64,000 bases of DNA from Bryobacterales bacterium (lineage in GTDB: Bacteria; Acidobacteriota; Terriglobia; Bryobacterales; Bryobacteraceae). Position 1 is the stretch's first letter. The number at the start of each line of letters is the position of its first letter. The position numbers and the translations under genes were made by a program. Below are positions 13,060 to 23,698 of the stretch, in pieces. Where the stretch lies: assembly GCA_003164035.1 (NCBI GenBank), contig PLRS01000054.1:1-64000 (forward strand), given 5' to 3'. The notes under the pieces are model-generated. The model worked only from the letters and a program-made list of their open reading frames with translations. It did no database searches and was not told the DNA's origin.

Positions 13060-14618
13060 AGACTGTACCTTTCGATATGTTCGCGTTGTGCGTGTTTGCG
13101 AGTTTCCTTCTGGTGGAAGGGACCTCCAAAGGCGGCGGACAAACGCCTAAGAGCAGGCAAACGGCGGTAGCGGGGACGTTCTATCCGGCCGACCCGGCTG
13201 AACTCGGGAAAATGATCGACGGCTACCTTGCGAAAGCCGCGCCGCCGCCACTGGATAACGTGGTGGCGCTGGTGGCGCCGCACGCGGGCTATATTTATTC
13301 CGGCCCGGTGGCGGCCTACTCCTACGCGTTGTTGAAGGGCCGGAAATTCGACCGCGTGGTGATCGTCGCGCCCTCGCATTACGAAGGCATCGGTTTCTCG
13401 TCGGTGTACGACGGTGCCGCCTACGAGACCCCGTTCGGCCAGGTTCCCGTGGACCAGGACTTCGCTCGCAAGCTCGCCAAGGCAAGCCCCTCGATCCGGC
13501 TTTCGTCGGCGGGCCACAAACCCACCGCCGACCACCCGGAGCACTCCATCGAAGTCCAACTGCCTTTTCTGCAGCGGGTGCTGGGGCAGTTCGCGCTGGT
13601 GCCGGTCATCATGGGAGATCAAAGCTACGACGCCTGCCGCGCCCTCGGCGTGGCGCTGGCCAAGCTGTCGGCGGGGACCAATACCCTGATCGTGGCCAGC
13701 TCCGACCTGTCCCACTATCACACCTACGACGAGGCGTCGAGACTCGACCATAAGACGCTGCGAGCCATCGAAGAGTACGATTACTTCGACCTGGCGCGCA
13801 ATCTCGATACGCGGGTTTGGGAAGCGTGCGGCGGAGGGCCGGTGGTGGCCACCATGATCGCCGCCGAGCGGCTGGGAGCCACCGATGCCAGGCTGCTCCA
13901 TTACGCCAATACCGGAGACGTTACCGGCGACCGCGGCCGCGTGGTGGGCTACGGCGCGGTTGCCCTGGTGAAAGCCGCCGGGGCAGGGAAGACCCGCGAG
14001 CCGGCGTTTTCCCTTAGCATGGCGGAGAAGGACGCGCTGCTGAAAATCGCCCGCAAGTCGGTCGAGACCGCAGTCCGCGAGGGCAAAACCTACGAATGCT
14101 CCACCGGCCTCGAGGCGCTGGCGCAGGAGCGTGGGGCGTTCGTCACTTTAACCGAAAACGGGCAGCTCCGCGGCTGCATCGGATACGTGGCGCCCATCAA
14201 ACCCCTGTACCTCGCCGTACGCGACGTGGCCAGGCTGGCGGCTCTCCGGGACACGCGCTTTCGCCCGGTTACCGTGAGCGAACTGGGGAACCTGCAGTAC
14301 GAAATCTCCGTCCTGTCCCCGCTGCGCCGCGTAATGGACACGCAGGAAATCCGCATCGGCCAGCACGGTCTGCTGATCCACACCAGCGACCACGAGGGCC
14401 TGTTGCTGCCGCAGGTCGCAATCGAGGGGAAGTGGGACCAGGCCACTTTCCTGGAGCAGGTTTGCTATAAGGCCGGCCTCTCGGGGCACGCCTGGCGGGA
14501 TGCCGGCGCCGATCTGTTCCGCTTCACCGCCCTGGTGTTCGGCGAGCACGGTCCGGTGGAGTCGCTCGCGCCGCCGGATCCGCTGGTGCATTGGCCTTGG
14601 TCCGCGGCGCCCAGGTAG
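13056..14618 (+). CDS. MEMO1-AMMECR1 fusion (AmrB-AmrA), probably exported
   Basis: It has 520 residues. A hydrophobic N-terminus (FDMFALCVFASFLLVEG) suggests secretion. The MEMO1-type (AmrB) domain covers about 40-310: AVAGTFYPADPAEL, LVAPHAGYIYSGPVAA, DHPEHSIEVQLPFLQ and SSDLSHYHTYDEA, holding the conserved histidines of this non-haem iron dioxygenase-like fold. The AMMECR1 (AmrA) domain covers about 325-505, with the hallmark LRGCIGY. Fusion of the two confirms that they work together with the AmrS enzyme, whose stop overlaps this ATG. The product ends four bases before a convergent aldo/keto reductase gene. Confidence 0.9.
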   Translation: MKTVPFDMFALCVFASFLLVEGTSKGGGQTPKSRQTAVAGTFYPADPAELGKMIDGYLAKAAPPPLDNVVALVAPHAGYIYSGPVAAYSYALLKGRKFDRVVIVAPSHYEGIGFSSVYDGAAYETPFGQVPVDQDFARKLAKASPSIRLSSAGHKPTADHPEHSIEVQLPFLQRVLGQFALVPVIMGDQSYDACRALGVALAKLSAGTNTLIVASSDLSHYHTYDEASRLDHKTLRAIEEYDYFDLARNLDTRVWEACGGGPVVATMIAAERLGATDARLLHYANTGDVTGDRGRVVGYGAVALVKAAGAGKTREPAFSLSMAEKDALLKIARKSVETAVREGKTYECSTGLEALAQERGAFVTLTENGQLRGCIGYVAPIKPLYLAVRDVARLAALRDTRFRPVTVSELGNLQYEISVLSPLRRVMDTQEIRIGQHGLLIHTSDHEGLLLPQVAIEGKWDQATFLEQVCYKAGLSGHAWRDAGADLFRFTALVFGEHGPVESLAPPDPLVHWPWSAAPR

Positions 14619-16460: not shown

Positions 16461-16739
16461 GGTGTCGAGAGAGTCTCCCCCGCTCCTGATGTCGTGGAAT
16501 TTGCGTTGAGCCAGTTTCGGCGGCGACCGGGTGGGACAGACCATCGTTTTTCGTGGTCTGTCGGCCCCTCGCCAGGCCCTAACAGCCTGACAGACGACAA
16601 AAAACGATCGTCTGTCCCACCGCTGGGTCAGGTCATTTTCCCTTGGGCCGCTCAAAATGCCGAGGTGACATCAGGAGATCGGAGTCTCGCCACGGCACGC
16701 ACGAGCGTGCGCCACGTCCTGTTGTTTCATGACGATTCC
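16461..16739. repeat. Family-B repeat copy B2, split by element C
   Basis: The flanks of element C (GGTGTCGAGAGAGTCTC on the left; CACGGCACGCACGAG, GTGCGCCACGTC and a right end GACGATTCC at 16739) match the centre and right half of the complete family-B copy at 20407-20591. The left half is diverged or missing. A further B-type left end (CCTGTCAGGGAATAACC) begins at 16751. Confidence 0.65.
16478..16682. mobile_element. MITE-like element, family C, inserted in a family-B repeat
   Basis: A 205-bp segment is flanked by the 6-bp direct repeat AGTCTC (16472-16477 and 16683-16688). Its ends are terminal inverted repeats: CTCCTGATGTC on the left and, reverse-complemented, on the right (GACATCAGGAG). 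It contains two inverted copies of a ~36-bp palindromic motif (16530-16564 and 16585-16622; core ACAGACGA / TCGTCTGT). The intact family-B copy at 20407-20591 has the same GTGTCGAGAGAGTCTC without the insert. It encodes no protein, so it would have to be moved in trans. Confidence 0.75.
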
Positions 16740-17098
16740 TAATCTAAGGCCCTGTCAGGGAATAACCATTCCACGGTCGCGGCTCTAACTCGCGGCATGA
16801 CGCAACGAATGCTTGGATCGGAGCCGGTAGGGAAAAAACAAATTCAGGCCGCCGATGAAGAGGTTCCGCGCCTGGCGGGGCGGGGTGCTAACGTGGAAGC
16901 GAGGCTGCATTGTGGGTGGCAGGATTGGCGACCGCGGATTGGGCGCGTGGGCTCTCGCGCCGCAGTCTCCTATTTTGGCGGCCGCGATAAATAGGACCGA
17001 CACCGATACTCTTGCGGTGTCCGCCGAACCGGCCGCCTGCCGGCAAGACCGGCAAACCGGTCAGCTCCGTACGCAAACACAAGGATGAGGTGCCATTT
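16740..17098. other. Repeat fragments upstream of the enolase-superfamily gene
   Basis: It holds a family-B left end (16751-16767), a piece of family A (ACGGTCGCGGCTC near 16773) and a family-E half arm (CAAATTCAGGCCGCCGATGA, about 16838-16857). No gene is supported. Confidence 0.5.
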
Positions 17099-18586: not shown

Positions 18587-19621
18587 GTGAAAACCGCGGC
18601 GTGGTTCTTTGTGGGTGCATTGCCCGCACTGGGGCAGTACTCGGTGGAGCGGAATGGAGATGTGGTTAGGCTGCTGGATGGCAAGAGCCAGACGGTGGTT
18701 TCGGTGATGCCATCGCACGGCAACGGCGCCTTCGATATGACGGTTCGGGGGAAGAAGGTGCTGTATAACCCGTACGCAACGCCGGAAGAATACAAGAAGT
18801 CGAGAGGGATAACGGGGATTCCGTTCCTGGCGCCATGGGCCAACCGGCTGGACACTACGGCGTTTTATGCCAACGGGAAGAAGTATAATTTCAACCTGGA
18901 ATTAGGGACGGTGCGGCGCACCCCGGACAATCACCCGTCGCACGGTTTTCTGATGAGTACCAGCGCGTGGGAAGTGGTCGAAGCCAAGGCGGACGAAACC
19001 GCGGCGTGGGTGACGAGCCGGCTGGAATTCTACCGGCACCCGGACTGGATGGCGCAGTTCCCGTTCGCGCACACCATCGAGATGACGTACCGGCTGAAGG
19101 ACGGGACGCTGGAGGTTCAGACCAAATTGAACAATCTGAGCGTGGACCCGATGCCGGTGGCGATCGGATTCCACCCGTTCTACCAGGTGAACGACGCGCC
19201 CAGGGACGAGTGGACGTTCGGGCTGGGGGCACGCACCCAGTGGATGCTGGCCCCCGACAAGATTCCGACCGGAGAGACGCGGCCGATCGAGCAGTTCCTC
19301 CCCGATCCGCAACACAGCGTGCTGAAAGGGCTGGACCTGGACCACGTATTCGGCGACCTGATCCGGGATGGCTCGGGAAAAGCCACCATGTGGGTACAGG
19401 GGAAGGCCGAGCGGGTGGAGGTGGCGTTCGGGCCGAATTACCACGCGGTAGTGGTCTGGGCGCCGGCCGGACCACACCGCGATTTCATCTGCTTCGAGCC
19501 GATGGCGGCGATTACCGATGGGCTCAACCTGGCCGAACGCGGACTCTATAAAGAGCTCCAGTACATTCCGCCCGGAAAGACGTGGCAGGAGAGTTTTTGG
19601 GTCACCCCGAGCGGGTTTTAG
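18587..19621 (+). CDS. Aldose 1-epimerase (mutarotase) family, secreted
   Basis: It has 344 residues beginning with a short signal peptide (MKTAAWFFVGALPALG). Galactose mutarotase-like fold: FLAPWANRLD is the conserved sugar-binding stretch, with SHGFLMSTSAW holding the first catalytic His, and VAIGFHPFYQVN the second. The acid Glu is expected in ICFEPMAAITDGLN. The GTG lies 24 bases after the dehydratase stop, so the two form a likely operon. It would interconvert anomers of sugars in the periplasm. Its stop overlaps the stop of the convergent aldolase gene. Confidence 0.88.
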   Translation: MKTAAWFFVGALPALGQYSVERNGDVVRLLDGKSQTVVSVMPSHGNGAFDMTVRGKKVLYNPYATPEEYKKSRGITGIPFLAPWANRLDTTAFYANGKKYNFNLELGTVRRTPDNHPSHGFLMSTSAWEVVEAKADETAAWVTSRLEFYRHPDWMAQFPFAHTIEMTYRLKDGTLEVQTKLNNLSVDPMPVAIGFHPFYQVNDAPRDEWTFGLGARTQWMLAPDKIPTGETRPIEQFLPDPQHSVLKGLDLDHVFGDLIRDGSGKATMWVQGKAERVEVAFGPNYHAVVVWAPAGPHRDFICFEPMAAITDGLNLAERGLYKELQYIPPGKTWQESFWVTPSGF

Positions 19622-20262
19622 GCTGGCTGGCGCGCAGCCGCCACCGCGGCCAGGTATTGGCGGGCGCGGTCTTCGATGACGTCGAAGCGCCCTTGCGCCA
19701 CGGTTGCCCCATCGACCAGCTCCGAACCCACCGCGACCGCGCAGGCGCCGGCTTTGAGGAACTCGCCGACGGTAGCCAGGTTCACGCCGCCGGTCGGGAC
19801 CATCTGAATTTCCGGGAACGGCCCTTTGAGAGCCTTGATGTACTTCGGCCCGCCCACGGCGCTGCAGGGGAATATTTTAACGGCGTCGGCGCCGGCCTGC
19901 CATGCCGCTAACACTTCGGTGGGCGTCAGTGCGCCGGGGAAGATGACTTTGGAGTAGCGCTTGACGATCTCGATGGTGGCCAGGTTCAAGGCTGGGGTCA
20001 CGAAGAACTGCGCGCCGGCCAGCATGCACGCGCGGGCCGTCTCGGGATCGAGCACGGTACCGGCGCCGAGGATCATTTCGTCGCCGAGCCGGTCCGCCAG
20101 TTTCTCCAGTACCCGAACGGCGCCGGGTACGGTCATGGTAACTTCTGCCGCGCGAACGCCGCCGCGGTGAATCGCCTCAATGGCCTGGAGTGCGCTGTCC
20201 GCACTGGCAACGCGAACGATCGGGACGAACCCGATTTCAATGATGGAATTGAAAATCTGCAT
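19618..20262 (-). CDS. KDPG/KHG-type aldolase
   Basis: Class I aldolase that cleaves 2-keto-3-deoxy-6-phosphogluconate (or 4-hydroxy-2-oxoglutarate) to pyruvate and an aldehyde. It has 214 residues, typical. Visible hallmarks are AAEVTMTVPGAV, ILGAGTVLDPETA, FFVTPALN, FPGALTPTEVLAAWQ and the Schiff-base Lys in AVKIFPCSA. It is cytosolic. It lies convergent to the mutarotase gene with a four-base overlap of stop codons. With the adjacent dehydratase it suggests an Entner-Doudoroff-like branch for sugar acids. Confidence 0.93.
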   Translation of the reverse strand: MQIFNSIIEIGFVPIVRVASADSALQAIEAIHRGGVRAAEVTMTVPGAVRVLEKLADRLGDEMILGAGTVLDPETARACMLAGAQFFVTPALNLATIEIVKRYSKVIFPGALTPTEVLAAWQAGADAVKIFPCSAVGGPKYIKALKGPFPEIQMVPTGGVNLATVGEFLKAGACAVAVGSELVDGATVAQGRFDVIEDRARQYLAAVAAARQPA

Positions 20263-20370
20263 CTAGCCTCAGAATAACTCCCCGACGGAGGGGCGGTTCA
20301 GGGCTAGCGCCGCAAGTGAAAAATCAAATTCCCTGGTACACCGCTTTGGAAGTTCGATAACGTATTTGCG

Positions 20371-20687
20371 TGCAACCGCTCCCTTACGGTCGCGGCTCGG
20401 TAAGTGCCTGTCAGGAAATAACCATGCCAACCCGACGTGGCGCACGCACTCCTGCGTGCCGCGTTGGCATTTTTGCCGACGCTCGGCGCACCATACGCGA
20501 GCGGGTGTCGAGAGAGTCTCGACACGGCACGCACGAGTGCGTGCGCCACGTCGGGCTCCAGGATTCGGCATGGTTATTTCATTACGATTCCTAAGTGACT
20601 GCAAACACGCGGTGTTCGTAACCGAGCCGCGACCGGTAAGGGAGCGGTTGCCGCGCCTAAGCTGCGAAATCCCCAGATCGGTTAAGC
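20371..20687. repeat. Family-A repeat copy A2, reversed and interrupted by a family-B element
   Basis: The left inner arm CAACCGCTCCCTTACGG (from about 20372) and right parts (ACCGAGCCGCGACC at 20620, then ATCCCCAGATCGGTTAAGC to 20687) match copy A3 at 23317-23470 in reverse orientation. The 190 bases between are an inserted element plus a duplicated TAAGTG. Removing them restores the continuous A3-like sequence GGTAAGTGACTGCAAAC. No gene is seen in 20263-20808. Confidence 0.8.
20407..20591. mobile_element. MITE-like element, family B (complete copy B1)
   Basis: A 185-bp element flanked by the 6-bp direct repeat TAAGTG (20401-20406 and 20592-20597). Near-terminal inverted repeats share AAATAACCATGCC; within them lie further inverted arms (CGACGTGGCGCACGCACTC / GAGTGCGTGCGCCACGTCG). 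It has no coding capacity. It sits inside family-A copy A2, so A2 is older than this insertion. A related copy is at 16461-16739. Confidence 0.8.
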
Positions 20688-20808
20688 AGCCATCCCCAGC
20701 CCTCGCCGGGCGAGCGGGGTATAGAATGGAATAAGATCGCTGTAAGATTACCGCGAAGACCGGAGTATCTCAGTTGTAACCCGTCCGCAGGCTTAGCCCG
20801 AGGGTCTA

Positions 20809-23310
20809 TTGTCGAAGAATCGCAAACCGCACCGAACGGCGAAGAGCCAGGACCCGAGTCACGACGCGGTTGGGGACGTACGAGCCACCTTCGACGACGC
20901 CCTGCGGCATCACCAGGCGGGACGGCAGGCCGAAGCGGAGCGGCTTTTCAAGCTGATCGTGACGGCCGAGCCCCGGCACGCCGACAGCCAGTACTTTCTC
21001 GGTCTCATCGCCCATGAGAGCGGCCGTTACGACGTAGCCGTGGACCGGATCGGCCGGGCGATCCGGATCAAGGAAGGCATTCCTTTTTATCATTACACCC
21101 TGGGTAACGCCCTCAGGTCCCAGGGCAAGACCGCGGCCGCGGTGGCTCAATTCGAGCGTGCCCTTGCGCTGAAGCCGGATTACGTCGAGGCGCACAACAA
21201 CCTGGGCGTCATTCTAAGTCAGCAAGGCAAGCGCGACGAGGCGATAGGGCATTACCGGAGCGCCCTGGCGATCGGGCCGGATTCGGCCAATGCTCACAGC
21301 AACCTGGGCACGGCGCTGGGAATGCAGGGCAAGGTTGCGGAGGCGATGACCCACCTGGAGCGCGCCGTCGCGCTCGACCCCGGGCACGCCAATGCACACA
21401 ACAATCTGGGTCTCGCACTGGTGGCGCAAGGCAGGATGGCGGACGCGATCGCCCACTACGAACGCGCCCTGGAGCTGAACCCCGGCTACGCGGATGCGCA
21501 CAACAATCTGGGCACCGCGCTGGCCGGGCAGGGCAGGGTGGCGGACGCGATCGTTCACTACGAACGCGCCCTGGAGCTGAATCCGCGCCACGCGAGCGCC
21601 CACAACAATCTGGGGCTCGCGCTGGGAGCGCAAGGCAGGTTTGCGGACGCGATCGCGCATTACGAACGCGCCCTGGCTCTGAATCCGGACCGCCCCGATG
21701 CGCACAGCAATCTGGGTCTCGCACTGGCGGCGCAAGGCAGGATGGCGGACGCAATCGCCCACTACGAACGCGCCCTTGAGTTGAACCCCCGCCATGTAAA
21801 CGCCCACAACAACCTGGGCACGGCGCTGATGGCGCAAGGCAGGACCGGGGACGCGATTGCCCACCTCGAACGGGCCCTGGCGGTGAACCCGGACCATGCC
21901 GACCTGCACAACAATCTGGGAGTTGCGCTGATCGGGCAAGGCAGAATCGGGGAGGCGATTGCCCATTACGAACGCGTCCTCGTGCTGCGGCCGAACGATG
22001 CCAATGCCCACAGCAACCTGGGTACGGCGCTGGCGGAACAAGGCAGGATTGCGGACGCGATGAGCCACCTCGAACGGGCCCTGGCGGTGAACCCGGACCA
22101 TGCGGATGCCCACAACAGCCTGGGAAACATCTTCAAGGACGAGGGCAAGCTGGACGATGCCATGGCGCACTACGCGCGGGCCATCGCCATCCGGCCGGAC
22201 TTCGGAGAGGCTCACCTGAACCGCGCCGACATCAAGTCCTACCGTCCCGGCGATGCCGATCTGCCGGTGCTGGAAGCGCTGGCCGGCAGGCAGGATTTGC
22301 CCGCCAACACGGCGATGCGTATCCATTTCGCCCTGGGGAAAGCGTTCGAAGACACGGGAGATTACGCCCGTGCCTGGGAGCATCTGCGCCAGGGCAACGG
22401 TCTGAAACGCAGGCAAATCGATTACGACGAAGCCAGGGTTCTCAACCTTTTCGGCCGGGTTTCGACCGTGTTCGACACCGGGCTGCTCGATCGCTTCCAG
22501 GGCAAGGGCGAAGCTTCGCCGGTTCCGGTTTTTGTCCTCGGCATGCCGCGTTCCGGCAGCAGTCTGATCGAGCAGATACTCGCCAGCCATCCGCAAATCC
22601 ATGGCGCCGGCGAACTGACGGATTTCGAGGCGGCGGCCAGCGGCGTGTTCCGTGCCGGCGGCCGAGTGGCGGAATATCCGGAGTGCGCTGGCGCGGTCGA
22701 CGGCGCCGGCTTGCGGCGCATCGGCCAGTCCTATCTGGCACGCCTGCCGTCCGTGGCGGAGGGTAAGGTGCGGATCGTCGATAAGCTGCCCGGCAACTTC
22801 CTCAATATCGGCCTGATCCATCTGGTGCTGCCAAACGCCAGGATCATCCATACCATGCGTCACCCGATGGATACCTGTGTGTCCTGTTATTCCAAGTTAT
22901 TCACATTCGGTCATCACTATACCTACGATCTGGCGGAGTTAGGGCGCTTTTACCGCTATTACGACGAGCTCATGACTCACTGGCGGCGCGTGCTTCCGCC
23001 GGGCGCAATCTTAGATGTCTCTTACGAGGACGTGGTCGACGACCTGGAAGGCCAGGCCCGGCGGATGATCGAGTATTGCGGCCTGCCCTGGGACGATGGC
23101 TGCATCGGCTTCCATAAAACCCGCCGGCCGGTCAAGACCGCCAGTTCCGTTCAGGTGCGCAAGCCGCTATTCCGTAGTTCGCTCCAGCGTTGGCGCAGGT
23201 ACGAAAGCGGAGTAACCCCGCTGCTCGACGAGTTAGGGAAGATCCTGCCCGATCTCGCGCCGCTGCTGTCCGGTGCAATGGCAGCCGCGGACGGCACACA
23301 CAAAGCTTGA
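20809..23310 (+). CDS. TPR-repeat sulfotransferase
   Basis: It has 833 residues. About 13 tandem tetratricopeptide repeats of 34 residues (about 25-470; typical unit AHNNLGTALAGQGRVADAI) precede a sulfotransferase domain (about 570-820). The domain has the 5'-phosphosulfate-binding loop FVLGMPRSGSSLIEQIL at about 573 and a 3'-phosphate-binding stretch near HTMRHPMDTCVSCYSKLF. It would transfer sulfate from PAPS to a protein, peptide or glycan docked on the TPR scaffold. The repeats are also conserved at DNA level with a 102-bp period, suggesting recent expansion. It starts at a TTG without a clear ribosome-binding site. No signal peptide. Family-A repeats flank both ends. Confidence 0.85.
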   Translation: MSKNRKPHRTAKSQDPSHDAVGDVRATFDDALRHHQAGRQAEAERLFKLIVTAEPRHADSQYFLGLIAHESGRYDVAVDRIGRAIRIKEGIPFYHYTLGNALRSQGKTAAAVAQFERALALKPDYVEAHNNLGVILSQQGKRDEAIGHYRSALAIGPDSANAHSNLGTALGMQGKVAEAMTHLERAVALDPGHANAHNNLGLALVAQGRMADAIAHYERALELNPGYADAHNNLGTALAGQGRVADAIVHYERALELNPRHASAHNNLGLALGAQGRFADAIAHYERALALNPDRPDAHSNLGLALAAQGRMADAIAHYERALELNPRHVNAHNNLGTALMAQGRTGDAIAHLERALAVNPDHADLHNNLGVALIGQGRIGEAIAHYERVLVLRPNDANAHSNLGTALAEQGRIADAMSHLERALAVNPDHADAHNSLGNIFKDEGKLDDAMAHYARAIAIRPDFGEAHLNRADIKSYRPGDADLPVLEALAGRQDLPANTAMRIHFALGKAFEDTGDYARAWEHLRQGNGLKRRQIDYDEARVLNLFGRVSTVFDTGLLDRFQGKGEASPVPVFVLGMPRSGSSLIEQILASHPQIHGAGELTDFEAAASGVFRAGGRVAEYPECAGAVDGAGLRRIGQSYLARLPSVAEGKVRIVDKLPGNFLNIGLIHLVLPNARIIHTMRHPMDTCVSCYSKLFTFGHHYTYDLAELGRFYRYYDELMTHWRRVLPPGAILDVSYEDVVDDLEGQARRMIEYCGLPWDDGCIGFHKTRRPVKTASSVQVRKPLFRSSLQRWRRYESGVTPLLDELGKILPDLAPLLSGAMAAADGTHKA

Positions 23311-23316
23311 TCGGGC

Positions 23317-23470
23317 GCTTAACCGATCTGGGGATTTCGCAGTTGCGGCCCGGCAACCGCTCCCTTACGGTCGCGGCTCGGTTACGGACACCGCGCGTTT
23401 GCAGTCACTTACCGAGCCGCGACCGCAAGGGAGCGGTTGCCGGGAACTAACTCCCCCAAATCGGTTAAGC
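23317..23470. repeat. Nested palindromic repeat, family A (complete copy A3)
   Basis: Perfect outer inverted ends GCTTAACCGAT / ATCGGTTAAGC and inner arms AACCGCTCCCTTACGGTCG / ACCGCAAGGGAGCGGTT are the clearest of all copies. A 9-bp direct repeat GCTTGATCG flanks it (23305-23313 and 23476-23484) and overlaps the sulfotransferase stop codon. The remaining 200 bases up to the next gene hold nothing recognisable. Confidence 0.85.
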
Positions 23471-23698
23471 ACCCCGCTTGATCGCGGCAGATCGGAGACT
23501 GGCAGCCCTTGCATCATCGTATTTGCGCGTGTTTGAATGCGCCGTCCACTTTTCATTGCGGCGTGTGAAGGTCTCGCATCCATTCGCCCAAAGCCAATTG
23601 CGCTGTGACTTTTGCCGAACCACATTGGCCGAAGCACCGCTTGCTTCCGCAACGGGCTTGCCATAGAATCGGCGCTGAGGCTTTAAGGAGGACTGTTT

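Follow-up and report, generated by a model that had tools for sequence, protein, structure and literature searches.

A palindromic MITE with ISAzo13-type ends nested in a second MITE family of a Bryobacterales genome

A 188-bp, gene-less palindromic element (family B; positions 20404–20591, plus strand) was found inserted in the loop of an older palindrome of a second family, family A. Judged by its ends, B is very probably a MITE that an ISAzo13 transposase mobilised in trans. The element lies in the window, that is, the whole 64,000-nt stretch of contig PLRS01000054.1 that was analysed, within an 8.0-Mb genome of 169 contigs (G000; below, G numbers denote genomes and L numbers retrieved loci). 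An earlier note on this DNA had suggested a DDE-type transposase acting in trans; this is still the best explanation, and the transposase family can now be named.

The insertion splits a family-A palindrome at 20373–20691, read on the minus strand, and its neighbours are a KDPG/KHG aldolase gene (19618–20262, minus strand) and a TPR-sulfotransferase gene (20809–23310, plus strand). Within the latter gene, at 21085–22200, a 300-nt stretch recurred in nine in-register copies at a spacing of 102 bp. The terminal inverted repeats of B occupy 20404–20429 (plus strand) and 20566–20591 (minus strand) and are bordered by TAA at 20401–20403 on the left and at 20592–20594 on the right. Outside these lie a core arm of the A palindrome on the left (20373–20400, minus strand) and the remainder of the A copy, including one A end, on the right (20595–20691, minus strand). 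Excision of B together with one TAA left a sequence whose junction aligned gaplessly with three A copies (at 23313, 48129 and 5811) read as reverse complements; the first of these is a complete copy of 162 bp (23313–23474, plus strand) with a 9-bp target duplication containing one mismatch. Nesting of B within A is thus real, with a clean empty site, and the claim that B arrived later than A at 20371–20687 is supported. Besides the duplication (below), two details differ from the earlier note. B starts at 20404 and not at 20407, and the A copy restored by excision is gapless at the junction but incomplete: only its core and right end (20373–20400 and 20595–20691) are A, while the outer left flank joined to the core (20336–20372, plus strand) is of another repeat type, which L253 and L105 likewise show next to an A-like core.

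Family B is a repeat family of many copies. In the genome, 83 stretches on both strands, partly overlapping, matched the 20404–20591 copy, and the core of the B ends had 76 matches at three or fewer mismatches versus one for a reversed control pattern. Each end spans 26 nt. A profile built from 61 end sites of this genome reads C-TWA (where TWA is TAA or TTA) followed by GGGCYYGTCANGAAATAACCRTGCCA, and the ends, written as TWA followed by GGGCCTGTCAGGAAATAACC, are of the ISAzo13 type. B has no transposase gene, and complete B-type copies measured 62–506 bp; the shortest (62–63 bp; L094 on contig C77 of G000, and L153 and L155 of G049) contained little beyond two ends. B is almost fully palindromic (fold z of −14), and an Rfam scan of positions 14000–50000 of the window returned no RNA family. 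B has the properties of a MITE: it is short and gene-less, with terminal inverted repeats, a target duplication and an empty site, and it has ends in common with an autonomous element, in this case ISAzo13 elements of relatives and not of this assembly.

The strict B end pattern was carried by 23 of 237 Bryobacteraceae genomes, and the relatives with B-type ends bear public names of Bryobacteraceae, Solibacteraceae or other Acidobacteria. The B-type copies of G021 were nearly identical, and this genome contains an ISAzo13 gene whose own ends were unreadable. Just short of the contig ends, three near-identical G021 elements (L145:3042–3118, L147:13–89 and L148:13–89) gave way to a group II intron (45.8 bits, Rfam RF00029); such an intron seems to have entered several of the B-type copies of this genome. 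In the window, at 16733–16773, the end of a degraded B copy stood two bases from another B-type end, with TAA-TC-TAA between them, as if one B-type element had landed beside the other.

Matches to the ISAzo13 transposase family (PF07592) were present in 33 of 101 genomes, including G000 (three matches), G021, G030 and G049. The closest correspondence with B was in the sister genome G003, where a B-type end immediately adjoins an ISAzo13 gene and scores 39 bits on the B profile, as high as the B copies themselves. At 19 loci the surroundings of ISAzo13 genes were searched for inverted repeats, blind to the B profile. This recovered clear terminal repeats after TWA in five (L224, L225, L226, L227 and L230); those of L228 and L237 were weaker, and the remaining loci gave no convincing repeat pair. 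The ends of L224, L225 and L230 fit the B profile with scores reached by zero or one of 5000 shuffles, those of L226 and L227 had an intermediate fit, and that of L237, for which the register in the test was one base off, did not fit. Altogether, 11 distinct ISAzo13 copies had an end scoring above 12 bits, and these ends lay 35–47 bp from the C-terminal end of the transposase wherever that end was present. Three of the proteins were assigned to the ISAzo13 transposase family NF033519 of NCBIfam (E-values 2.8e-146 to 2.4e-152), and Pfam concurred.

Both ends could be read in nine ISAzo13 elements, and TWA agreed in seven of them (L227, L230, L260, L270, L300, L301 and L302) and disagreed in two (L225 and L237), a count that sets aside the rearranged L243 and in which L260, L270 and L300–L302 were found by an end-like pattern and not by the blind search. 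ISAzo13 elements on three IMG/VR contigs had similar ends, with matching TWA in all three. B and the ISAzo13 elements of relatives thus have their ends, the register and a CTWAG-like target in common, and ISAzo13 elements do occur within the bacterial family to which this genome belongs. A further 29 loci with the strict B end pattern (L271–L299) contained no ISAzo13 gene within the stretches retrieved.

ISAzo13 in the genome's own assembly consisted of one copy in two frames (L234) and two fragments at contig ends (L253 and L254). Their ends, GCGCGAGAATTAT and GCGCAAGAATTAC, have the same CTWAG-like target as B and differ from it in the inner end. A transposase tree was built from 13 ISAzo13 proteins of 21 loci tried, the other eight being without the motifs by which the frame was chosen; in this tree the own-genome copy with the end GCGCGAGAATTAT fell in a different clade from the copies whose ends carry GT....AAATAAC. 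The assembly yielded no full-length ISAzo13 element whose ends came within two to three mismatches of those of B. In the search for autonomous partners, as called for in the earlier note, the best-matching element was that of G003; the only ISAzo13 group in the own assembly is divergent. Because the own copies differ in inner end and clade, the source of B was either lost or left out of the assembly, a common fate of multi-copy elements. The gene of L234 (710–2430, contig C43) comprised two overlapping frames meeting at a run of seven A, with similar runs in L235 and L238; this may reflect programmed frameshifting or a broken gene.

The sequence TAAGTG occurs at both 20401–20406 and 20592–20597, and the earlier note took all six bases as target-derived, the work of a DDE transposase of unspecified family within a one-way succession of A, B and C. 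The test set comprised 39 complete elements of up to 700 bp with both end cores, from all loci retrieved, with TAA or TTA scored when it stood at most one base from its expected position. TWA was present on both sides in 23 (16 from the own genome and seven from G021, G036 and G049) and was lacking on one or both sides in 16. Where present on both sides it was identical in 21 of 23 (binomial p of 3e-5), the exceptions being L014 and L094. Bases 5 and 6 agreed in two of the 21 TWA-sharing copies, about the number expected by chance: the 20404–20591 copy (TG/TG) and L007 (CT/CT), in which six bases are equal. In most left ends base 4 is G, the first base of B, and the CTWAG-like target puts a G there in many right flanks too; left and right bases differed in eight of 21 copies (e.g., L009, L026, L030, L142 and L155). 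The left GTG is the end of B itself, GTGCCT also starting L002 and L063 at other places, and the right GTG (20595–20597) belongs to A. The target-derived duplication is TAA only. B termini do not as a rule abut 6-bp direct repeats, and the alternative origin that the earlier note had allowed for, with TAAGTG belonging to the B consensus at both ends, applies to the GTG half at the left end only. With an A copy also lying inside a C element (L059), which runs against the one-way order, the 6-bp version is highly improbable.

A palindrome of this kind might instead be REP- or BIME-like, spread by a single-strand transposase (Y1, RAYT) or by replication slippage and flanked by TAA through chance. 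The nearly complete palindromy of B and the 62–63 bp copies that are mostly two ends agree with such an origin; terminal repeats in a fixed register with matching TWA, a clean empty site and ends like those of DDE insertion sequences would be unexpected under it. Already disfavoured by the match of the W base in 21 of 23 copies, it is extremely unlikely. Mobilisation by an IS5-type transposase (the IS1031 group or a PIF-like enzyme), which also makes 3-bp TNA or TWA duplications, is a further alternative. Owing to the 3-bp A+T duplication, IS5-type partners were the first choice, and all three candidate families failed. PF13340 had no match in the own genome and PF13359 had none in seven of seven genomes; PF01609 was present in all seven genomes searched, and none of the 30 loci read had B-type ends around the gene. 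The single match above 12 bits at these 30 loci was at a known B-type site. Pairs of B ends 0.5–5 kb apart were absent from the loci retrieved by then, except for two unrelated ends in the window. The TWA duplication and CTWAG-like target are of the kind known for the IS1031/PIF group, and an IS5-type source is nonetheless very unlikely given these searches. The preferred reading is ISAzo13.

According to this reading, a full-length ISAzo13 element would supply its DDE transposase in trans. The enzyme is predicted to bind the ends common to B and ISAzo13 and would move B into a staggered cut at TWA, in most cases one lying in CTWAG; the joining would thereby duplicate TAA or TTA. For the 20404–20591 copy the target would have been the TAA in the loop of the older A palindrome. 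We infer that the source element resembled that of G003 and is absent from this assembly.

Family A is a separate, independent MITE of 161–168 bp with ends GGGTGCTTAACCGATCTGGGG. Thirty copies were examined, of which seven were without an end; among the 23 with both ends, 12 had 9-bp duplications with zero or one mismatch. Duplications of 9 bp in A and 3 bp in B imply two different transposases. A 20-nt core of A had 569 matches (291 forward and 278 reverse) at three or fewer mismatches across the whole own genome, compared with 18 for the reversed control. These cores stand in elements with different outer ends, and one core seems to be common to several MITE families.

The families were nested in several directions. 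B lay in A in the window and at L012 (where the right flank is not A), and both insertions used the same loop TTA; the two B elements occupying it in two A loops (L001 and L012) were of different subfamilies. C was found inside B, always at one particular internal site, in L026, L030 and the degraded B copy of the window (16461–16745, plus strand). A lay in C at L059, with a 9-bp duplication containing one mismatch. The three-layer succession from A through B to C, drawn from the window, consequently fails genome-wide: the order is local at best, and the activity periods of the families overlapped. L026 and L030 lie in different places, and because each has its own outer TTA duplication and C occupies an identical internal position in both, B carrying C probably moved as one unit; the alternative is that C landed independently at one hot spot. 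In G049, an A-type core was found within a B-ended element (L151) that occurs without the core at L153 and L155.

An A core was present within 80 bp outside seven of 22 complete own-genome B-type elements; the corresponding figures were zero of 30 for A copies and 1.7% for random points in the window. This proximity possibly reflects no more than gene-poor spacers, an explanation against which the control A copies speak. Tentatively, several MITE families of these Acidobacteria, with different transposases, may form a network of mutual nesting, with insertion favoured at palindrome loops and nested pairs moving together; we regard this as a possibility that is rather less likely than its negation.

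Nested MITEs as such are of a known kind, and the finding is well supported and mostly ordinary. For a repeat recurring in Bryobacteraceae it provides a likely parent family, and it indicates MITEs with ISAzo13 ends, which, with their mutual nesting, are of specialist interest. Nested copies provide relative dates for repeats that are otherwise undatable, and here a simple one-way layering misleads. The available excerpts of the literature on ISAzo13 contained no description of an ISAzo13-derived MITE. Overall, B resembles members of the ISAzo13 family (PF07592/NF033519) in its GG-starting ends with GT.....AAATAAC, the same register, the duplication of TWA and a CTWAG-like target; it differs in having no transposase gene, and the two have only their ends in common and nothing of the interior. 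Duplications of 3 bp are given for both ISAzo13 and Zator, its eukaryotic relatives, in an excerpt of PMC10045372, and the likeness of B to Zator is one of described duplication length. With bacterial MITEs in general, B has in common that it is short, gene-less and palindromic, with terminal repeats, a target duplication and many copies, and it differs from them in its likely parent, ISAzo13, and in the nesting of its copies among those of two or three further MITE families.
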